From Clostridia bacterium (GTDB lineage: Bacteria > Bacillota > DSM-521 > Neomoorellales > Neomoorellaceae): a stretch of DNA of 64,000 bases. A program made the translations under genes and the position numbers. The notes beneath the pieces were generated by a model, which saw only the letters and a program-made list of their open reading frames with translations, did not search any database and was not told the DNA's origin. Location: positions 62,001-126,000 of the forward strand of contig JASUSV010000001.1 in assembly GCA_030445865.1 (NCBI GenBank), written 5' to 3'. Positions 14,318-26,127 of this stretch are shown here, one piece after another. Positions within the stretch are counted from its first letter, which is position 1, and every line of letters begins with the position of its first letter.

Positions 14318-14758
14318 TTATCTCTCCTCCCTGGAAGGCAGAATGATTGTAGCCTCTCCTTTAACCGTTACCTCGCCCTTCTGGTTTTCCATCCAGATCT
14401 CGCAGTCCACCAGCTTTTCCTGCCCTAAAACCCGCCTGGCCTTCACCCGGCCGCGGCAGAACAGGGTGTTCCCAGGCACATCGATGGCCGTGTAGCGACA
14501 GGAGATGCGCCGCAAGAAGCTGTTAGGTCCTCCCCAGGCCAGAAGCATGCGTGCCAGCAGGGACAACTTAAAGGGACCGTGAACAATTACCGTCGGTAGC
14601 CCCTGGGAGCGGGCAAATTCTTGATCGTAATGAATAGGGTTATAATCTCCGGCGGCGCAGGCCCAGCGGACCAGGTGCTCGGTAGTAATAGGGCCTACCT
14701 CCAAACAGGGGATTTCCATGCCCTCTTTTACATCTTCAAAATAAAGCTGTGGTAACAA
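14318..14758 (-). CDS. MaoC-like enoyl-CoA hydratase, catalytic half (pair 2)
   Basis: About 146 residues, one hot-dog fold. The (R)-hydratase motif is complete in AAGDYNPIHYDQEFARSQG: Asp and His spaced five apart as in MaoC/PhaJ, followed by the VHGPFKLSLLARML helix. It should add water to an enoyl-CoA double bond or remove it from a 3-hydroxyacyl-CoA. The TTG at 14758 with GGGGGTG 5 bases upstream is preferred; the frame is open to a TTG at 14797. It follows a FAS1-like partner at 14844 and the two probably form a heterodimer that mimics double-hot-dog hydratases. Confidence 0.85.
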   Translation of the reverse strand: MLPQLYFEDVKEGMEIPCLEVGPITTEHLVRWACAAGDYNPIHYDQEFARSQGLPTVIVHGPFKLSLLARMLLAWGGPNSFLRRISCRYTAIDVPGNTLFCRGRVKARRVLGQEKLVDCEIWMENQKGEVTVKGEATIILPSREER

Positions 14759-14843
14759 GATAACACCCCCATGCTTAGTGCTTTTCAAATAGGCCAATAG
14801 AATTATCCGTCATCCTTGGTTTTGGCGGGGTTTCGGCACAACC

Positions 14844-15308
14844 CTACCGTTTAACAACCGTTACTTTATTGGTCATACAAAGCTCGCCGTGCTGGTTGTA
14901 ATAATTGGTTTCGGTAGTAATAAAGATCATCTTCCCGGAGCGCCCTTCCTTTTCTTCGATACTTAAGATGCGCGTGTTGGCCCTTATGGTATCGCCGACT
15001 TTTATGGGGCGGTAAAAAATTAACTCATCCCCTCCCCTGACGCGCCTGGTTAAAGGCAAGGGAATATCGAAGTCACGCTCCGAGCCGGAAGGCATATTGG
15101 TGGTCAAAAAAGCCGGGGGCATGGGGATGCCGCCATAAATAGTTTGAGAGGCGAAATCGGCGTCCCGGTAAAGGGGGTTGTTTCCGTCAAAAATGGCCTC
15201 CGCAAAGCGCCTCACCGCTCCTTTTTCGATTTCCAGGGGCTCGCCCAGGCCGGTCTCCCTGCCCACGTATTCCGCAGCTATTTTAGCTACCAGCTTTTCC
15301 TCGCTCAT
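14844..15308 (-). CDS. FAS1-like dehydratase, N-terminal-type half (pair 2)
   Basis: 154 residues, matching the MaoC_dehydrat_N / FAS1-like dehydratase domain. It has RRFAEAIFDGNNPLYRDADF in the place of the hydratase motif: the Asp-Asn-Pro are kept but the catalytic His is Tyr. This is usual for the structural half of a two-part hydratase such as mesaconyl-CoA or 3-hydroxyacyl-ACP dehydratases. The GGIPMPPAFL segment is also typical. ATG start with GGAGG 11 bases upstream. It lies between the CoA-transferase gene at 15335 and the catalytic MaoC half at 14318. Confidence 0.82.
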   Translation of the reverse strand: MSEEKLVAKIAAEYVGRETGLGEPLEIEKGAVRRFAEAIFDGNNPLYRDADFASQTIYGGIPMPPAFLTTNMPSGSERDFDIPLPLTRRVRGGDELIFYRPIKVGDTIRANTRILSIEEKEGRSGKMIFITTETNYYNQHGELCMTNKVTVVKR

Positions 15309-15334: not shown

Positions 15335-16546
15335 TCAGATAATTTCTTTCTTCTCTAAGCGGGCTATTTCTCCTTCCGTCAACCCTAAAAGTTGTCTGAA
15401 AACGTAATCGTTATCTTCCCCTAACAGAGGAGCGGGTTGACTGATACCCCCAGGTGTGGCGCTTAAACGCCAGCAGGGCCCGTAAACAATCTGCCGGCCT
15501 ACCTCCGGATGGTCCAGCTCCCAGAAAGCCCGGCGCTCCTTAAGGTGGGGATCAGCCAAAAGCTCGGGCACATTCAGGGAGGGACCGGCGGCCACGCCGC
15601 TGGCTTGTAGTAACTCCATCAACCGGTAGGGCTCAAACTGGCTGGTCCAGAAAGAAATTAGGGTATCTAATTCCTCCCGGTGCTGCTGCCGGGAAGCCGG
15701 GTCGGCGTAGCGGGGGTCGGTGGCCAGATCCGGCCGGTTCATGACCCGGCAAAGCGCCACCCATTCTTCCTCGCTTTCAACGGCAATAGCAATCCATTTA
15801 TCTTCCCCCTGGCAGGGGTAACACCCGTGCGGGTGCTTAAAGGGATGGCTGTTGCCAAGTCTGCCGCTATTTTTGCCGGTTACGGCCTGCTCCACCAAAG
15901 CATCTGCTATTAAATTGATAGAAACTTCCATCTGGGAAACGTCGATATACTGGCCCTCACTGCTCTTTTCGCGGTTGTATAAGGCTACCAGGACGGCGAA
16001 GGCGCCATAGAGGGCCGAGGCGGTGTCCGGGAACATGCCACCCAGAGATTCCGGTGGGCCGTCGGGGTAGCCGGTAAGATAATCTAAACCCGCCCAGGCG
16101 TCAATGGAAGGGCCATAGCCCACATAATCCCGCTGGGGACCGGTATGGCCGAAGGCAGATAAGGAAAGCATGATAATGTCCGGCTTCACGAGTTTGAGAT
16201 TCTCATAATCGAGGCCGAGTTTTTGCATCACCCGCGGCGAAAAATTTTCGATAACCACATCGCTGATGGCCACCAGGCGCTTGGCCAAACTCGCCCCTTC
16301 TGGATGGGTTAGGTCTATGGTGCAGCTCAACTTACCCCGGTTCTGGGCGTTCCACACGCCGCTGCGGTTTAAGCCCGGTACCCCTCCAGGGTAAGGGCCC
16401 TGGCGGCGGTGCACGTCCGTCCTTTTCTTGCTCTCAACCTTTATCACTTCCGCCCCCATGTCGGCCAGTATTTGAGCGCAATAAGGACCGGCCCAGACGT
16501 GGCCGAAATCCACCACCCTTATTCCTTTTAAGGCACCCTGGCTCAC
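15335..16546 (-). CDS. Class III (CaiB/BaiF) CoA-transferase, catalytic subunit
   Basis: 403 residues. The fold starts GIRVVDFGHVWAGPYCAQ; the putative active-site Asp lies in MFPDTASALYGAF (about residue 194), followed by the family signature SEGQYIDVS. Class III enzymes pass CoA between carboxylic acids through an aspartyl-CoA anhydride. The GTG at 16546 is preferred: GGGGGGAGGG precedes it and it shares a 4-base GTGA overlap with the stop codon of the paired CoA-transferase gene. That coupling, and the missing Asp in the partner, suggest a BbsEF-like heteromer in which this is the active chain. The substrate is likely a dicarboxylic or hydroxy acid. Confidence 0.88.
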   Translation of the reverse strand: MSQGALKGIRVVDFGHVWAGPYCAQILADMGAEVIKVESKKRTDVHRRQGPYPGGVPGLNRSGVWNAQNRGKLSCTIDLTHPEGASLAKRLVAISDVVIENFSPRVMQKLGLDYENLKLVKPDIIMLSLSAFGHTGPQRDYVGYGPSIDAWAGLDYLTGYPDGPPESLGGMFPDTASALYGAFAVLVALYNREKSSEGQYIDVSQMEVSINLIADALVEQAVTGKNSGRLGNSHPFKHPHGCYPCQGEDKWIAIAVESEEEWVALCRVMNRPDLATDPRYADPASRQQHREELDTLISFWTSQFEPYRLMELLQASGVAAGPSLNVPELLADPHLKERRAFWELDHPEVGRQIVYGPCWRLSATPGGISQPAPLLGEDNDYVFRQLLGLTEGEIARLEKKEII

Positions 16547-17646
16547 CGGCCCTCCCCCCATCTAAATGTAGAAAATTTGGCCGGGCAACCCGGCGCCGGG
16601 AAGCTTCGACCGTCTTCCGTACTTACAGGCAGAAAATATTGGTGCTCTACAAGTTGAGGGAAAGTGAAAAGATCTTCCAGGCTGTTTACCGCCGCAAAGG
16701 GAACTTTACGTTTTTGCGCTTCCCGGCAGATTTCCTCTTTGCTATGCTGGCTCAGCCAGGCGTTTACCAGGGGATCCAGGGCCTCGCAGTTCCGGTAACG
16801 CGATTCCTGGTCTTTAAAGCGCTCGTCTTTAGCCCACTCGGGATTATCCATCATCTCCACAAAACCCTGCCACTGGCGCTCTTCCATGATCTGCACAAAG
16901 ACGTAGCCGTCCCGGCAGCGCCTGATGCCCAGGGGAGCGATCCCCCGGCTGCGGGTAAAGCGGGAGGGTATGATACCCTGGTAAAGGTAAACCGCCAGCT
17001 CGCGCCTGAGCAGGGGAAGCAGGCATTCCAGAATGGCAATGTCCACATGTTGGCCCTTTTTAATCCGCTCGCGGGCCAGCAGGGCGCACATGGTAGCCCC
17101 GGCAGCGCTCAAGCCGGCGTAGAAGTAGGCGATTTGCCCCGGCCCTTTTAAGGGCTCCCATTTTTCGCGTCCACTCCTGCCGCCGATTTCGCGGGGGGTC
17201 ATGTAGCCGAGGCCCGACATGTGAAAAACTACGAGTTCGTTGGCTTTATAGGCGCGATAGGGGCCTGACCGGCCAAAAGGGCTGATAGAAGTCAGAATTA
17301 ATTGCGGATTTACTGGCTCCAGCGAATGAATATTTATCCCCCATTTTTCTGCCAACTCAAAGGGCAAATCCTCGATTAGAACATCGGCACCCGCCAGCAG
17401 CTCGCCAAACAGCTTGCGGCCCGAAGGCGCATTTAAGTCCAGAGCGACGCTTTCCTTGCCGGCATTTAAATAAGCGGAAAGAGCCTTTTGTACTACCGGA
17501 GCATAATCACCGGGGCCGCTCTGTCCGGGTAGTTCTAATCTTGTAACTCCGGCGCCGAAGCCAGCCAGCAGGCGTGCGCAGTAGGCGGCGGCTACCGTAC
17601 TGCCGAGTTCCAGTACTCTTAATCCTCTTAACGGTACTTCCGGCAA
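16543..17646 (-). CDS. Class III CoA-transferase-like protein, subunit without the active-site Asp
   Basis: 367 residues, same CaiB/BaiF fold: GLRVLELGSTVAAAYCARLL at the start and RIKKGQHVDIAI in the signature position. Alignment by eye with the neighbour puts Tyr, not Asp, at the catalytic position (local sequence GQIAYFYAGLS). It is therefore unlikely to be active alone. Known two-subunit enzymes such as succinyl-CoA:benzylsuccinate CoA-transferase have one such inactive chain. TTG start at 17646 with GGGGAG upstream, one base after the stop of the MaoC gene. Probably a structural partner of the downstream gene. Confidence 0.8.
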   Translation of the reverse strand: MPEVPLRGLRVLELGSTVAAAYCARLLAGFGAGVTRLELPGQSGPGDYAPVVQKALSAYLNAGKESVALDLNAPSGRKLFGELLAGADVLIEDLPFELAEKWGINIHSLEPVNPQLILTSISPFGRSGPYRAYKANELVVFHMSGLGYMTPREIGGRSGREKWEPLKGPGQIAYFYAGLSAAGATMCALLARERIKKGQHVDIAILECLLPLLRRELAVYLYQGIIPSRFTRSRGIAPLGIRRCRDGYVFVQIMEERQWQGFVEMMDNPEWAKDERFKDQESRYRNCEALDPLVNAWLSQHSKEEICREAQKRKVPFAAVNSLEDLFTFPQLVEHQYFLPVSTEDGRSFPAPGCPAKFSTFRWGEGR

Positions 17647-17647
17647 T

Positions 17648-18061
17648 TTAATCTCCCCTTGGCACGAGCCCGCTGGCCGTGCCCACAATTACCTTTTCGC
17701 CGTCCTGCTTCTCGACCCAGACATCGCACTCTACCCGGATGGCTTCGCCTTCCAGTATTTTTGCTTTAACCATTCCTTTAGCCGTAACAAAATCGTTAAC
17801 GTAAGTGGGTCGGCGAAAAGTAAGGTCCCATTTACCGCCCTTAATCCACCCTTCGCCGAAACACATGAGCATCATTTTAAAAATTACGGCTGCCACTTGA
17901 GGCCCTACGGCTACCGGCGCCGGCAAACCCTCGCGCCTGGCCGCTTCCTCATCTGTATGAATGGTCTTCTCGTCTCCTTTTTTGAAAATCTCGAGCCGCA
18001 ACTGGCGAGATACCGGCGGCAAGTAAGTCCCCAGCTCCGTATCTTTAGTAATTATAACCAT
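17648..18061 (-). CDS. MaoC-like hydratase half (pair 1)
   Basis: 137 residues from the ATG at 18061, chosen because GGGAGG lies 7 bases before it; an upstream in-frame start would run through the preceding gene. The hot-dog helix reads KKGDEKTIHTDEEAARREG, so Asp and His keep the hydratase spacing although the usual Asn-Pro between them is Lys-Thr. The AVGPQVAAVIFKMML stretch matches the following helix. It is probably the catalytic half of a heteromer with the gene at 18078; the altered motif may mean a different substrate from pair 2. Confidence 0.78.
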   Translation of the reverse strand: MVIITKDTELGTYLPPVSRQLRLEIFKKGDEKTIHTDEEAARREGLPAPVAVGPQVAAVIFKMMLMCFGEGWIKGGKWDLTFRRPTYVNDFVTAKGMVKAKILEGEAIRVECDVWVEKQDGEKVIVGTASGLVPRGD

Positions 18062-18077: not shown

Positions 18078-18590
18078 TTAAATGCTTTCCGCTTTGATGC
18101 CGCTGTCGATGCCGACCCCCGTACGGGGAGCCGTCCTTTCGATATAATCCAGCACATGAGTGCGCCTCGTCCGGAACAACTCCTCTCCAGCTTCATTCAC
18201 GCCTACGGCTTCGTAGCTGATATACTCGCGGTTATTTTTAATCCATTTATCCACTATCCGGGCGGAGATAATGATTTTTTCATTGGGCTTGATAGGAGCT
18301 AAATTTTCCATCTGCCACTTGTAAAACAGCCCGCGGACGTTATAAGTGCGCGACAGCAACCACCGCGGGGGCCGGTAAGTAATCTGGGGGGGAGCAATAA
18401 CCCCTCCAAAAGGAGAGTCGATCTTATACCATTCATGGTAGTCTTCGTCCATCAGGCACTGGGCGTCGATCATCTCCTGGGTAATAATCCATTCCAAGGA
18501 ACCGAGGTCTTTGCCAACCTCGATGTCCTCAAATTTGGCCCTTTCGCCCTTTTCATCCCTCAAGACCCTTGCCTTACCTTCTCCGGTCAT
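18078..18590 (-). CDS. FAS1-like dehydratase half (pair 1)
   Basis: 170 residues of the MaoC_dehydrat_N type. The catalytic motif position reads DEDYHEWYKIDSPFGGVIAP, with no Asp-x4-His dyad, so it is a non-catalytic partner. The APPQITYRPPRWLL and IKPNEKIIISARI stretches are typical of the family. First gene of the six- or seven-gene operon, 53 bases downstream of a sigma-54 promoter; ATG start. The gap to the next gene is only 16 bases. Confidence 0.78.
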   Translation of the reverse strand: MTGEGKARVLRDEKGERAKFEDIEVGKDLGSLEWIITQEMIDAQCLMDEDYHEWYKIDSPFGGVIAPPQITYRPPRWLLSRTYNVRGLFYKWQMENLAPIKPNEKIIISARIVDKWIKNNREYISYEAVGVNEAGEELFRTRRTHVLDYIERTAPRTGVGIDSGIKAESI

Positions 18591-18642: not shown

Positions 18643-18659
18643 AGCAAAGTCCATGCCAA
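18643..18659 (-). promoter_or_regulatory. Sigma-54 (-24/-12) promoter of the hydratase/CoA-transferase operon
   Basis: The minus strand reads TTGGCATGGACTTTGCT. It keeps the GG at -24 and GC at -12 with correct spacing; one base (T for C in TGGCAC) differs from the consensus. It lies directly downstream of a sigma-54 activator gene. Confidence 0.85.
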
Positions 18660-18735: not shown

Positions 18736-20124
18736 TCAATGATTATCTCCGGCCTTTAACTTCCGGTAAAGCGTGGCCAGGCTGATACCCAGTGCTTCTG
18801 CCGCCCTGCGCTTACCTTCGGTAGAATGGCCGTAAATCTTTAACTGCTCTAAAATCGCCTGAACTTCTACCTCTTTTTTTAAAAAACGCAGGCGCCGCGT
18901 CTCTTCATCAGGATTTGCTCCCATTTTTATCTTAAACCCATTTTTACCGTTTCTAGAGAAAGGGAAGCAGTCGGGAGGAATAAGCTCTCCCTCCACGACA
19001 TTGACCGCGTACTCCACGGCATTTTTTAATTCCCGGACATTACCCGGCCATGGATAGTTGACCAACTCTTTCAAGGCCTGCCAGCTGAATTTAAGGTTGC
19101 GCCTGTATTTGTTATTCAATTGACCGAGATAATACTGGGCGATGGCTATAATATCCTCTTTGCGCTCCCTCAAAGGAGGCAAATATATAGGAACCACGTT
19201 TAGCCGGTAGAACAAGTCCTCGCGGAAAAGACCTCGGGCCATCAGTTCTTCGAGATCTTTATTGGTGGCCGCTATTATCCTTATATCGATTTTCTTTTCT
19301 TTCGTGCCGCCGATCCTTCTTACCACCCGTTCTTCTAAAACACGCAATAACTTGGCCTGCAAGTAGGCATTCATGTCGCCGATCTCGTCTAAGAAAATGG
19401 TCCCTTTGTCGGCAAGCTCCAGCAGACCAATTTTCCCTTGCTTGTTGGCTCCGGTAAACGCTCCTGGCTCATAACCAAAAAGTTCGCTCTCTAAAAGGTC
19501 GGCAGGTATGGCCGCGCAATTTACCGCCACAAAATACCCCTTGTTGCGGGCACTGGCAGCATGGATGGCCCTGGCGATCAATTCTTTACCCGTCCCCGTT
19601 TCGCCACGGATGAGCACGGTAGATTCAGTTTGGGCTATTCTCTTTACCGTCTCGATTATACGGTGAAAGCTCGGGGAGGCGCATACAATATTGGCAAAAA
19701 TTTCTCTGGCAGCATAGTCCTGGTCTTCGTACTTGGTAATACTTGTATTGGAATTTTTATAGGATTCAATCAAATTACTGACTTCTTTTACATTCCGGGA
19801 AACGCTTACTACTCCCAAAACCCTGCCGTTCTCCAAAATCGGTATCACATCGGAAATATACTCGTCCTCGCCTTTCTTTTTCCGTATACCCTGGATCGCC
19901 CTGCCTGTGTTCAGTACCCGGGGGATGACCAGCGGGCCGGGTCTGACCTCCTCAATTCTTTTGCCGATTGCTTCCTCTTTCGATACCCCTCGCATACGGC
20001 AGTAAGCATCGTTAAGAAAACATATTCTGCCCTCACTATCCGTAATTAAAATGGCTTCATTCATAGCGTCTAAAATACTTTCTATATTAAGCACGCCAAT
20101 TTTACTCGATTCTAAATTCGCCAT
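18736..20124 (-). CDS. PAS - AAA+ - Fis sigma-54-dependent transcriptional activator
   Basis: 462 residues. A PAS domain occupies about residues 10-115 (MNEAILITDSEGRICFLN). The AAA+ domain follows, with Walker A GETGTGKE, the sigma-54 contact loop GAFTGA, and Walker [10 protein letters not shown]. The C-terminus (about 410-460) is a Fis-type helix-turn-helix ending RRAAEALGISLATLYRKL. It would bind upstream sites and drive open-complex formation at sigma-54 promoters, with the PAS domain sensing a metabolite. The start at 20124 is preferred for its AGGAGGGGG site. It lies between the two operons with -24/-12 promoters and is the obvious activator for both. Confidence 0.93.
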   Translation of the reverse strand: MANLESSKIGVLNIESILDAMNEAILITDSEGRICFLNDAYCRMRGVSKEEAIGKRIEEVRPGPLVIPRVLNTGRAIQGIRKKKGEDEYISDVIPILENGRVLGVVSVSRNVKEVSNLIESYKNSNTSITKYEDQDYAAREIFANIVCASPSFHRIIETVKRIAQTESTVLIRGETGTGKELIARAIHAASARNKGYFVAVNCAAIPADLLESELFGYEPGAFTGANKQGKIGLLELADKGTIFLDEIGDMNAYLQAKLLRVLEERVVRRIGGTKEKKIDIRIIAATNKDLEELMARGLFREDLFYRLNVVPIYLPPLRERKEDIIAIAQYYLGQLNNKYRRNLKFSWQALKELVNYPWPGNVRELKNAVEYAVNVVEGELIPPDCFPFSRNGKNGFKIKMGANPDEETRRLRFLKKEVEVQAILEQLKIYGHSTEGKRRAAEALGISLATLYRKLKAGDNH

Positions 20125-20236
20125 CCTACCCCCTCCTGGGTATCTAGGTATAACAACATTGAGTTCCTTTTCCAAAATAATGAGATTCTGATGTTATTAT
20201 TATTTCTCTATTTTGATAAAAAGTCCTTCCCACATA

Positions 20237-20274: not shown

Positions 20275-21147
20275 CTATTTCCCACATTTTTCAACTCCGT
20301 ACTTTTCCAATAACCTCAGCGCTCTCTGCACTATCGGTTTATCTACCATCCTGCCTTCGACAACTATAACGCCCAGATTCTGAGCCTGGGCTTCTTCAAA
20401 AGCCGCCACTACCTTGCGGGCGTATTCCAGCTCGGCTTCGGTAGGGGAAAAAGCTTTATTGATAATTTCTACCTGTTTGGGGTGGATGGCGCACTTGCCG
20501 CTAAAGCCGAGTTGACGGGCCAGGCGGCACTCCCTTTCCAGGCCGTCAGGATCGTTTAAGTCGGAGTACACGGTGTCCAGGGCCATAATTTTGGCCGCGG
20601 CCGCGGCCAGAACGATATTGCCCCGCGCATGGGCCAGCTCGATACCTTCACGGCTGCGGGAGGTACCCAGATCGCTGGCGAAATCTTCGGCCCCCAGGGA
20701 CAAAGCCTCTACCCTTTCGGAAGCCGTGGCGATTTCATAGGCCCTGATTACCCCCAGTGCCGTCTCTAAAAGGGCGATTATCTTGATGCCGCTGCGCGGC
20801 AATCCCAGTTCCTGCTCTAAATTGACAAGGGTACGGCTGACGTAACGTATTTCATCCGCCGCTTCTACTTTAGGCAACACTATTCCCCTAAGATTGGGGC
20901 TAACGACGGCCTGCAAGTCGGCATCGATGAGTCCGCTGGAGACGGCATTCGTCCGCACGTAAATCGGGAGTCCCAGTGGTTGCTCTTTCAGATACTGGTG
21001 AATAAGTTGCCGGGCCGCCGGCTTTTCCGCCGGGGAAACGGCATCTTCCAGGTCCCAGATCACGGCGTCAGCGCCCACGGTTGGAGTCTTGGCCAGCATT
21101 TTTTCTTTATTCCCCGGCATAAAGAGGAGGCTGCGCATCAGGCTCAT
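20275..21147 (-). CDS. CitE-like lyase (malyl-CoA / citramalyl-CoA lyase family)
   Basis: 290 residues, HpcH/HpaI aldolase superfamily, CitE branch. RSLLFMPGNK opens the barrel, WDLEDAV binds CoA and metal, LLETALG holds a metal-binding Glu, and LGAEDFASDLG and GFSGKCAIHP complete the site. Stand-alone CitE-like enzymes, without the CitD and CitF partners seen in citrate lyase, split (S)-malyl-CoA, beta-methylmalyl-CoA or citramalyl-CoA into acetyl- or propionyl-CoA plus glyoxylate or pyruvate. Here it follows a ligase pair that could make the CoA ester. ATG start; a second ATG three codons later (MRSLLFMPG) is equally likely. Confidence 0.87.
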   Translation of the reverse strand: MSLMRSLLFMPGNKEKMLAKTPTVGADAVIWDLEDAVSPAEKPAARQLIHQYLKEQPLGLPIYVRTNAVSSGLIDADLQAVVSPNLRGIVLPKVEAADEIRYVSRTLVNLEQELGLPRSGIKIIALLETALGVIRAYEIATASERVEALSLGAEDFASDLGTSRSREGIELAHARGNIVLAAAAAKIMALDTVYSDLNDPDGLERECRLARQLGFSGKCAIHPKQVEIINKAFSPTEAELEYARKVVAAFEEAQAQNLGVIVVEGRMVDKPIVQRALRLLEKYGVEKCGK

Positions 21148-21192: not shown

Positions 21193-22107
21193 CTACTGAC
21201 CACCTTTTTCCTCCCCGAATAACGAGCGCAGCACATCTCCGATTTCATCCAAGTTGCGCACTACATAGGCCCCGGCCTCCCGCAGGCATTTTTCTTTCTG
21301 GGAAGGCCGGCCCCTGCCTTGGGAAATTATGGCCCCGGCATGACCGAATACGGTGTTTTCCGGCATGGTTTCGGTAAAACGGCCGGCAATATAGGAGATA
21401 AGTGGCTTGGTAAACCTGCCAGCGGCTATCATCTCGGCTACTTCTTCTTCAAAAGTAGTGCCGGGTTCCGAGAACATTACCACCGCGTCGGTGCCCTCAT
21501 CCTCCTGGAAAAGCGCAAGCAGGTCGCAGGGGGTCGAGCCGATAAGGCTGTCGCCGCCGATGCTTATAGCTGTACTGACCCCGAAACCCGCCCGCTTGAT
21601 CGTCCAGCTAGTCTCCGCCGTCATACCGCCGCTGCGGGAAATGACGCCAATGCGGCCGGGAGGGAAGCAGCGGTCCGGATTGTCGCCGCCGATAGCCCCG
21701 AGCTTCATTCTCTCGCCGGGGCTGATTATCCCCACGGAATTAGGCCCTACTATTATCACCGCTGCCTCTTTGGCCAGGTGAAGAAATTTCAGGGCGTCGT
21801 GCTGCGGAACATTTTCGGTGGCTATCCAGATGAGTTTAACGTTGTTATCTATGGCTTCCAACACGGCGTCGTAAACAAAAGCGGGGGGCACGTAGACGGC
21901 AGTAGTATTAATGCCATGCTCCTGGCAAGCAGCCTTCAGGCTATCGTATATGGGAATGCCGTGGATTTCCTGCCCACCCTTGCCGGGCGTTATCCCGGCC
22001 AGGACAGGGGTGCCGTAAGCGAGCGTATGCCTGGCCACCATGGAAGCCTCGCGCCCGGTAATACCCTGGATGGCAATCCTGGAATTTTTATCGATTAAAA
22101 TAGCCAT
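21193..22107 (-). CDS. SucD-like acyl-CoA ligase alpha subunit
   Basis: 304 residues. It has the CoA-binding fold (IAIQGITGREASMVARHTL), VGPNSVGIISPGE and the phosphohistidine motif FGHAGAII (about residue 250). The length and the ETMPENTVFGHAG context differ a little from true succinyl-CoA synthetase, as in malate-CoA ligase (MtkB) and other specialised relatives. With the beta subunit, one base upstream, it should couple ATP or GTP to CoA ester formation on a dicarboxylate. The CitE-like lyase downstream favours malate, citramalate or itaconate as substrate over succinate; this is inference. Confidence 0.88.
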   Translation of the reverse strand: MAILIDKNSRIAIQGITGREASMVARHTLAYGTPVLAGITPGKGGQEIHGIPIYDSLKAACQEHGINTTAVYVPPAFVYDAVLEAIDNNVKLIWIATENVPQHDALKFLHLAKEAAVIIVGPNSVGIISPGERMKLGAIGGDNPDRCFPPGRIGVISRSGGMTAETSWTIKRAGFGVSTAISIGGDSLIGSTPCDLLALFQEDEGTDAVVMFSEPGTTFEEEVAEMIAAGRFTKPLISYIAGRFTETMPENTVFGHAGAIISQGRGRPSQKEKCLREAGAYVVRNLDEIGDVLRSLFGEEKGGQ

Positions 22108-22108
22108 T

Positions 22109-23332
22109 TTACCTGCTTCCCTCCCCGTAATACTCCTGCATCTTGGCGATTATCTTCTGGGCCGCCTCTCTCATGCTGACTTCTTCAGCATAGTAGTCAA
22201 TTCCGGCTTGCAAAAAGAGCCTGCGGGCCTCGTCCTCGTTGACCCCGGCCTCCCTGACAACTATAGGAAAAGTTTTGGGGTCAATATTTAATTCTTTTAA
22301 CGCCCGAAGTAAGCCCTGGGCCACCAGGTCGACCTGGGTGTTGTTGGTAATATTCTGGGCCACTATTAACCCCCGTACCCCCGGCTTACTTAAGATTACC
22401 TTCGCCAGGCCGTAGACTTTTTCGGCCGTGGGGTTGCCGCCGAACTCCGAATAATTGGCGGGCTTGCCGCCGAACTCCAGCAGGGTATCGAACATTAATA
22501 AACTGCCGCCGCCCCCGCCGCACATAAAACCGATGTCGCCGCCGTCCATCTCCGTATATCGCGCCGTGCCCCGGTAGGGGTCTTTTTCGTTGACCTCCAC
22601 GGCCTGTTTTTCTAGCTCGGTAAGGGGCCGCCAGGCCCGCTCCATACCCATCTGGACGAAACCGGCCAGGTCGGGATGGCGGTAAAGGGCACTATCATCC
22701 AGGCCGAGAACGCAGGCCGCCGCTATTACCTCTCCTTTATGGGTAATAACCAGCGGGTTTACCTCTAAAAGATAGGCGTCCAGATCGGCCCAAGCACGGT
22801 AGAGGGAAACCAGGGTGGCCGTTAAATCCAGCAGGGCTTTACCCGACATTCCCAGTTCGGACCATATCTCGCGCGCTTTAAAAGCAGGCAGACCTAATAT
22901 AGGGTCGGGGTGATAGATTTTCACTTTATCCTTTTCTTTTTGGATTATTTCTTCTACATCCATCCCTCCCGCCGTACTCGCTATAACTGCCGGTTTTTTT
23001 ACCGAACTATCAATGGTTATGGAAACATATAGCTCCTGCTCGATGTCGAGCTTTTCTTCCACCAGTAGGCGTTCAACGGGATAATTAGAAAGGGTCAGCC
23101 CCAGGATCTCGCTAGCAACCTTAACCGCCTCCTGGGTATCCCCAGCAAACCTCACTGCCCCGGCCTTGCCGCGCTTACCAATAGGAACTAACGCCTTGAT
23201 AACCACTTCTTTCCCCAGCTCTGCCGCCGCCTTTCCCGCCTCGTCTGCCGTTGAAACTATGCGAAACTCCGGTACTTTAATGCCGTATCTCGCCAGAAGC
23301 TTTTTAGCCTGGTCCTCTAAAAGACGCGCCAT
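22109..23332 (-). CDS. SucC-like acyl-CoA ligase beta subunit
   Basis: 407 residues, about 20 longer than standard SucC. The ATP-grasp half is recognisable (KALVPIGKRGKAGAV, LLEVNPLVIT) and the C-terminal ligase domain has DGGDIGFMCGGGGGSLLMFD and FGGNPTAEKVYGL in place of the usual GGGA.. versions. These variants mark a side branch of the family, seen also in malate-CoA ligases. The stop codon is separated from the sucD-like start by one base, so the subunits are coupled. ATG start with GGAGGTAAGGC upstream. A terminator-like hairpin stands between it and the first gene of the operon. Confidence 0.88.
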   Translation of the reverse strand: MARLLEDQAKKLLARYGIKVPEFRIVSTADEAGKAAAELGKEVVIKALVPIGKRGKAGAVRFAGDTQEAVKVASEILGLTLSNYPVERLLVEEKLDIEQELYVSITIDSSVKKPAVIASTAGGMDVEEIIQKEKDKVKIYHPDPILGLPAFKAREIWSELGMSGKALLDLTATLVSLYRAWADLDAYLLEVNPLVITHKGEVIAAACVLGLDDSALYRHPDLAGFVQMGMERAWRPLTELEKQAVEVNEKDPYRGTARYTEMDGGDIGFMCGGGGGSLLMFDTLLEFGGKPANYSEFGGNPTAEKVYGLAKVILSKPGVRGLIVAQNITNNTQVDLVAQGLLRALKELNIDPKTFPIVVREAGVNEDEARRLFLQAGIDYYAEEVSMREAAQKIIAKMQEYYGEGSR

Positions 23333-24499: not shown

Positions 24500-24516
24500 A
24501 GCAATTCCCGTGCCAG
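24500..24516 (-). promoter_or_regulatory. Sigma-54 (-24/-12) promoter of the M29-sucCD-citE operon
   Basis: The minus strand reads CTGGCACGGGAATTGCT, a perfect match to the YTGGCACGRNNNTTGCW consensus, 49 bases before the GTG start of the M29-like gene. Confidence 0.93.
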
Positions 24517-24677: not shown

Positions 24678-25075
24678 TCAGCCGGGTAGTTCAGCAACAA
24701 TCATTTCTCTTGAGAGCAATCCACCCAGGTTTTCAATTAAATTTCCCTTGCGGTCTATAATCAATACTCTGGGCACGCCTTCTTTTAAAATATCTTCATA
24801 ATGCCTTTTTGCGTAACTTCGTAAACTTCATAAAAATAGAAGTTAATTTTGCCTCTAAACTCATCTTTAATTGCCGCCATTACAGGCAGCATGCGTTTAG
24901 AAGTTCACTTTCCAGGCTTATCAGAGTAAGGATCGGCATATAAAAATATAACCGCAGGAGACCCGCCTTGAACATATTACCAATAGGAACCTTGTTCCTT
25001 GATTAAACTCTTATAATTTGGGGTAATAAAAACTAGAAGGAGAGAAAGGAAACCAAAAATAACGCCTGCGGTCGA
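24678..25075 (-). pseudogene. Broken membrane-anchored thioredoxin-like gene
   Basis: The minus strand encodes a hydrophobic anchor (VIFGFLSLLLVFIT), then PAVIFLYADPYSDKPGK, a stop, and TSKRMLPVMAAIKDEFRGK, followed after a frameshift near 24812 by YAKRHYEDILKEGVPRVLII and DRKGNLIENLGGLLSREM. This is a thioredoxin fold. Damage seen: TAA at 24977-24979, TGA at 24905-24907 exactly where the first redox Cys is expected, and the frameshift. The 120 bases behind it down to the terminator hold another open stretch, ending near 24555, that I do not recognise. Confidence 0.75.
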
Positions 25076-25086
25076 CTCCTTAATGC

Positions 25087-26127
25087 TTAGGCATTAACCA
25101 ATTTGGAATGAAAACTGAAATCTGAGGAATTAAAATTGAAAATTACCTGACCTATAAACAATAATACGAGTAAGAAAGGATAAAAAGATTTCATTTTCTT
25201 TTCCATGGATATATTACCAATGCGGGCTCCGACTACCAGCCCTACTCCAGCAGAAGGTATAAATAGACCGATACCTATTGAGGCCACTATCGCTATTAAG
25301 AAGTGGAGGGGTTCAATGCCAAACTTTTGAACTACCGGCAAGAAAACGAGCGTAAAAATAAGCGCTTCTGGCACGCCTTCTAGCAAATAGCCTACAATTA
25401 TTAATGCCAGGTTAGCTCCCAACATAAAGATAAAGGGGCTATTGGAAATAGATAAAAAGAAGCTCATATGGTTTTCAAAAACAAAGCTATTAGCCGACCC
25501 AGCTTTTAGTACATTTATAAGAACATCAGGATCGACCCCTGCTTTTACTCCTAAGGTTAGGCTCTCCGCTAAAACGGTTAGGTTAGCTGAAACAACCAAA
25601 TTATTGATTATCTTCACTATTTTGCCGGTACCCAGACCCCCACAGTAATATATTTCTTTACCCATCGTCTTTAAAATATCTAGACAACGCTCATATACTG
25701 ATCGATCTCCTCCAACCATAATTGTAAGCGTACCCGCAACGGCGGCTTCTCGGGTACGAGTTACAGGTGCATCAAGTATATACGCACCCTTTTCCTTCAC
25801 ATGTTCTGCAAGTTCAAGAACTGTCCCGGCATCAATGGTGCTCATTTCAATAAGTACTGCATCAGGTTGTAATCCCTCAAGAATACCCTCTTTCCCCATA
25901 ACGGCAGCTTCTACATCTTTTGCCGTTGGTAGCATAGTAATTATTACCTCAGACTTGGATGCAACTTCTTTAGCATTTGAACATGCCTTGGCTCCCATAG
26001 CTGTAACTTCTTTTAGGGCTTCAGGGTTTATATCAAAAACAAACGCCGGGTAGCTTGCCCTTATCAGATTTTGACACATTGGGTTACCCATAGCCCCTAA
26101 ACCTATGAAGCCTACTCTTTGTTTCAT
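25087..26127 (-). CDS. Chimera: 3-hydroxyisobutyrate / tartronate-semialdehyde reductase N-terminus fused to DctM permease C-terminus
   Basis: 346 residues from two unrelated families. Residues 1 to about 218 are a beta-hydroxyacid dehydrogenase: Rossmann motif GFIGLGAMGNPM, substrate loop DAPVTRTREAAVAGTL, and the catalytic Lys in GTGKIVKIINN. The C-terminal helical domain (about 75 residues) is missing. From about residue 220 the protein becomes the last 130 residues of a TRAP large permease (FFLSISNSPFIFMLGANLAL, then GIGLFIPSAGVGL), with three to four membrane helices. The simplest origin is a deletion joining two genes in frame. ATG overlaps the activator stop (ATGA). It is probably non-functional. 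Confidence 0.85.
   Translation of the reverse strand: MKQRVGFIGLGAMGNPMCQNLIRASYPAFVFDINPEALKEVTAMGAKACSNAKEVASKSEVIITMLPTAKDVEAAVMGKEGILEGLQPDAVLIEMSTIDAGTVLELAEHVKEKGAYILDAPVTRTREAAVAGTLTIMVGGDRSVYERCLDILKTMGKEIYYCGGLGTGKIVKIINNLVVSANLTVLAESLTLGVKAGVDPDVLINVLKAGSANSFVFENHMSFFLSISNSPFIFMLGANLALIIVGYLLEGVPEALIFTLVFLPVVQKFGIEPLHFLIAIVASIGIGLFIPSAGVGLVVGARIGNISMEKKMKSFYPFLLVLLFIGQVIFNFNSSDFSFHSKLVNA

Follow-up and report, generated by a model that had tools for sequence, protein, structure and literature searches.

The adjacent class III CoA-transferase genes A and B of this Clostridia genome probably encode a heteromer of the BbsEF kind, with a single working site, co-expressed hydratases and, less certainly, a substrate of the dicarboxylate class. 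Within this explanation, the predicted association of A with an inactive chain B is well supported by sequence comparison. An arrangement of one active and one dead CoA-transferase chain is known from toluene degraders, and the pair described here serves an organic-acid pathway other than theirs. Hereafter, the window denotes the whole stretch of 64,000 nucleotides that was analysed.

Two overlapping genes of the class III CoA-transferase family

Both products match PF02515 over its full length (A 375.8 bits, B 268 bits; Pfam cut-off 23.3), and the 2.08 Mb genome has no PF02515 genes besides A and B. Their features are as follows.

16543..17646, minus strand: gene B, which starts with TTG and encodes a class III CoA-transferase chain of 367 aa, E-type (non-catalytic)
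15335..16546, minus strand: gene A, which starts with GTG and encodes a class III CoA-transferase chain of 403 aa, F-type (catalytic)
16543..16546, minus strand: stop/start overlap of B and A, 4 bases (GTGA), read from the sequence
17125..17127, minus strand: codon for Tyr174, which B has at the catalytic Asp column of the alignment
16025..16027, minus strand: codon for Asp174, the catalytic residue of A, which corresponds in the alignment to BbsF Asp178

The longest open reading frames span 15335-16561 and 16543-17688, and shorter starts fit better, namely TTG at 17646 for B, preceded by GGGGAG, and GTG at 16546 for A, preceded by GGGGGGAGGG, each with a purine-rich ribosome site. These starts, implied by the initial annotation, are preferred, and the GTGA overlap that it described stands with them; the strings PDTASALYGAF and GQIAYFYAG, on which it had relied, both occur in the translated genes.

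The catalytic aspartate is present in A and replaced in B

In a 76-row alignment with solved structures and homologues, the catalytic column holds Asp in A and Tyr (within QIAYF) in B. The catalytic Asp of class III CoA-transferases is thus found in the downstream gene and is missing from its partner, as had been claimed from the sequence at the outset. BbsE also has Tyr at this column. The BbsF residue in this column carries the number 178 in chain B of 9fn0, which provides an independent anchor for the column, and the PDB entry 9fol of BbsEF is titled 'D178-CoA adduct'. An Asp in the active site of B had been named beforehand as the observation that would speak against a dead partner, and the alignment with BbsE and BbsF shows Tyr instead. 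Furthermore, neither Asp nor Glu was found within the stretch KGPGQIAYFYAGLSAAG around Tyr174, so that a small alignment shift could not restore a catalytic acid.

The Asp is present in 49/49 ordinary class III enzymes and in all 14 F-type chains compared, and its absence in B is therefore not a matter of chance. A second conserved residue follows the same division: the Asn of the ENF motif occurs in 14/14 F chains, 46 of the 49 ordinary enzymes and 0/13 E chains. B, one of these E chains, has Asp in its place, and in a wider Chloroflexota set a few E-type chains retain the Asn.

B and A belong to a broad family of paired chains

In a careful tree of 74 rows, B groups with BbsE (13 rows, support 100/99) and A with BbsF (14 rows, 100/100), and a quick tree of 98 proteins recovers the same two clades, the E-type with B and BbsE (41 rows, 100) and the F-type with A and BbsF (43 rows, 100). 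The B-A pair accordingly consists of a BbsE-clade chain and a BbsF-clade chain lying side by side, E then F. Over the loci read, 35 such tandem pairs were counted, the window pair included, with Asp in the F chain of 35/35 and in the E chain of 9/35; as the loci were picked by similarity to E-type or F-type chains, these pairs do not sample class III enzymes at random. In addition, two natural E-F fusion proteins are encoded, in two genomes, in which the N-terminal half is dead (Leu or Glu) and the C-terminal half is active (Asp).

L128:1474-4014: E-F fusion, 846 aa
L132:268-2712: E-F fusion, 814 aa

The fusions are a direct hint that E and F chains may work jointly. Based on the clades, the tandem pairs and the fusions together, an obligate heteromer with one working site is the best reading.

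The E-F tandem pairs are abundant in Chloroflexota genomes, and those pairs, for example in the Dehalococcoidales MAG JAQTVW010000082 (L003), share gene order and clades with the window pair at 37-45% identity. They differ in having enoyl-CoA hydratases or corrinoid proteins as neighbours, without SucCD/CitE, and in that several of their E chains bear Asp. At one Chloroflexota locus (L079, G405:C135), an E/F pair with Glu at the Asp position of the E chain is accompanied by a HadA-like/MaoC pair related to that of the window operon and by four genes for enoyl-CoA hydratases. Another, a 15 kb Chloroflexota contig (L145, G615:C57:1-15218), carries five complete tandem E/F pairs in a row and an extra F chain.

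The subclade of B is not that of BbsE, and the exact position of B within it is weakly supported (41). It holds both Asp-bearing and Asp-less chains, so that B may have lost its Asp independently of BbsE; and since some E-type chains of this subclade keep Asp, one-sided inactivity is not universal.

Chain B is eroded on one side

B lacks the C-terminal ~37 residues, a tail present in 9/9 other E chains of the alignment, and is also missing part of the large-domain loop after IExP. When the domain limits are transferred approximately from the mesaconyl-CoA transferase structure (PMC9196870), B keeps 16/23 (70%) of the E-consensus columns of the small domain, where other E rows keep 41-77%, 57/101 (56%) of those in the N-terminal part of the large domain and 10/32 (31%) of those in the C-terminal part, the large-domain values being the lowest among ten E chains. 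The pocket of class III dimers is formed where the large domain of one subunit meets the small domain of the other, as described for mesaconyl-CoA transferase (PMC9196870). The one-sided erosion of B, seen in this one sequence, would fit a half-site enzyme.

This erosion also bears on whether B takes part in the enzyme at all. A could form an ordinary class III homodimer alone, homodimers being the state of ordinary class III enzymes, with B a decaying or purely regulatory duplicate, as no other E-type chain seen is as eroded as B, whose tail and loop are gone. However, the reading frame of B is intact, it has a ribosome-binding site, its GC content by codon position resembles that of its neighbours and its small domain is conserved, and E and F chains nearly always co-occur and are sometimes fused; we therefore regard a homodimer of A as unlikely. 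It is less probable still, and in our judgement very improbable, that both chains are catalytic, B through another residue or reaction such as racemase-like or lyase chemistry: racemases do share the class III fold and some E-type chains have Asp or Glu at the site, but B is without the Asp and the ENF Asn, its large domain is missing its C-terminal part and the loop close to the site, and no Asp or Glu stands nearby.

The closest relatives of B reach 37-40% identity at best. No close orthologue was found among 399 genomes of the same phylum, which gave generic homologues only, as did a plasmid search, and a scan of genome contigs with B as the query returned a single locus. An AlphaFold2 model of B, built from four sequences, is weak (pLDDT 65.8, pTM 0.62); Foldseek with this model recovered the class III fold, within which BbsE and the others are not separable.

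The pair is embedded between two hydratase pairs

B and A lie within an operon (18590-14318, minus strand) in the order HadA-like, MaoC, B, A, HadA-like, MaoC, directly downstream of a regulator gene.

18736..20175, minus strand: PAS / sigma-54 activator / Fis-HTH regulator gene, directly upstream of the operon
18643..18658, minus strand: sigma-54-like -24/-12 site TGGCATGGACTTTGCT, ahead of the operon, with a single mismatch
18078..18590, minus strand: HadA-like degenerate hotdog subunit 1, first operon gene, Pfam match absent, catalytic Asp/His motif absent by eye
17648..18061, minus strand: MaoC-type hydratase subunit 1, ATG at 18061 after GGGAGG, GDEKTIH motif
14844..15308, minus strand: HadA-like (FAS1_DH_region) subunit 2, motif degenerate (NNPLY)
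14318..14797, minus strand: MaoC/HadB-like hydratase subunit 2, full GDYNPIH motif

Judged by eye, the MaoC partners keep the Asp/His hydratase motif and the HadA-like partners have lost theirs, and hence each of the three enzymes of the operon resembles an active/degenerate pair. No relative of HadA-like subunit 1 was found among the 399 genomes of the same phylum; one occurs at the Chloroflexota locus L079.

The promoter-like site and the gene layout suggest that A and B are co-expressed with the two hydratase pairs under their own sigma-54 activator. Over the whole window, three sigma-54-like sites with at most one mismatch were observed and 1.2 were expected, so that it is their placement, not their number, that is telling. 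Right after the -12 element of the operon's site stands a perfect hairpin of 15 bp with a T run behind it (18640-18608, minus strand; MFE -22.3 kcal/mol, z -4.5). It may serve as the terminator of the activator gene's transcript, and transcripts from the putative sigma-54 promoter would begin within its left arm.

The benzylsuccinate pathway is absent

The likeness of the pair to BbsEF, which the initial annotation had proposed, stands as to architecture: the dead chain precedes the active one in tandem, Tyr faces Asp at the catalytic column, the chains fall into the E and F clades, tandem pairs always have Asp in F, natural fusions exist, and the ENF Asn is lost in the dead chain. The window pair differs from BbsEF in that it belongs to another E-subclade, that a loop and the C-terminal tail are missing from its dead chain, and that it stands without any bbs/bss genes. 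The larger or unusual acid substrate suggested at the same time did not find support. The benzylsuccinate pathway is absent from the genome, and the surrounding genes point instead to a route for a dicarboxylic or hydroxy acid.

Control bbs operons of the same phylum (L070-L072) comprise thiolase, two SDRs, E, F, acyl-CoA dehydrogenase and enoyl-CoA hydratase, with a PFL-like gene at one of them. That the pair is a true benzylsuccinate or alkylsuccinate CoA-transferase is barely credible: BbsF is the best solved-structure match of A (248 bits) and both chains lie in the E and F clades, but no PFL-like glycyl radical enzyme gene was found in the window genome, its only acyl-CoA dehydrogenase gene is away from this locus, no bbs genes were found here, and the L070-L072 chains, unlike the window pair, group with BbsE/BbsF at 98-100%.

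Two wider pathway assignments were excluded as well, a GRE-linked hydrocarbon-succinate pathway by the missing PFL-like gene, and a full beta-oxidation operon by the absence of thiolase, SDR and acyl-CoA dehydrogenase from the operon.

The neighbouring operon and the class of substrate

Upstream of the regulator gene lies an operon in the order M29-like, SucC-like, SucD-like, CitE-like.

24500..24515, minus strand: sigma-54-like -24/-12 site TGGCACGGGAATTGCT of the M29-like/SucCD/CitE operon, no mismatch
22109..23332, minus strand: SucC-like CoA ligase beta subunit
21193..22107, minus strand: SucD-like CoA ligase alpha subunit
20275..21147, minus strand: CitE/HpcH-like acyl-CoA lyase, probable pathway partner
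G000:C69:56115-56999 and 99552-100439 (L104, L105): further SucD-like copies of the same genome, 67-69% identical, lying in clusters of CoA-ligase and lyase genes that also hold TRAP or succinate dehydrogenase genes

The CitE-like lyase stays below the cut-offs of the curated families (RipC, 206.5 of 375 bits; CitE, 290.2 of 443.4 bits). The same genome carries two more close copies of the SucCD module (67-69%), at least one of which is accompanied by a CitE-like gene, a TRAP transporter and succinate dehydrogenase genes, and SucCD modules found elsewhere in the phylum lie next to MmgE/PrpD, lyase and TRAP genes. These neighbours indicate dicarboxylate metabolism, and an unsaturated or hydroxy dicarboxylic acid is our best, still tentative, guess for the substrate, drawn from the neighbours alone. 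The separate promoter-like sites of the hydratase/CoA-transferase operon and the SucCD/CitE operon count against this guess.

Further upstream, a broken thioredoxin-like coding remnant was noticed by eye ahead of the M29-like operon (about 24700-24900, minus strand). A chimeric open reading frame (25087-26127, minus strand), with an NAD-binding 3-hydroxyisobutyrate-dehydrogenase-like N-terminus and a TRAP DctM tail, is apparently a deletion remnant.

Two known systems offer a comparison. SmtAB of Chloroflexus, the succinyl-CoA:malate CoA-transferase, is a heteromer of two class III chains with a hydroxy dicarboxylate substrate, and is likened to the pair by description only. Itaconate degradation (CoA-transferase, itaconyl-CoA hydratase RipB/Ich, citramalyl-CoA lyase RipC/CLYBL) proceeds through three reaction types that are also encoded here, namely CoA transfer, MaoC-type hydration and CitE-type cleavage; it differs in that the window scores are all under the curated family cut-offs and the window hydratases are split into two-subunit pairs.

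Proposed mechanism and implications

Based on these findings, we propose that Asp174 of A would attack the acyl-CoA donor to give an enzyme-acyl anhydride, which would be converted into an aspartyl-CoA thioester on A, from which CoA would be passed to the incoming acid. The active site would be formed as a half-site by the large domain of A and the small domain of B, whose own large domain has lost Asp, the ENF Asn, loop and C-terminal tail while its small domain remains conserved. Most likely, though with less certainty, the pair would activate an unsaturated or hydroxy dicarboxylic acid, which the MaoC-type pairs would hydrate next, and the adjacent CitE-like lyase might cleave the hydrated product.

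A bolder reading, to which we give a rather low probability, is that the pair represents a heteromer losing one site domain by domain, independently of BbsE, in an undescribed sigma-54-controlled pathway whose transferase and hydratases alike are active/degenerate heteropairs. If so, the dead chain would retain just what the site of its partner requires, the small domain.

In conclusion, BbsEF, the single characterised heteromeric case used here, now stands within a broad family of paired transferases, including fusions and arrays, in which the F chain is consistently catalytic and the E chain usually dead. Because annotation pipelines label both chains 'CoA transferase', a good many apparent paralogue expansions may in fact consist of two-subunit enzymes. 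To this family, the window pair contributes an extreme dead chain, useful for tests of what such a partner has to retain.
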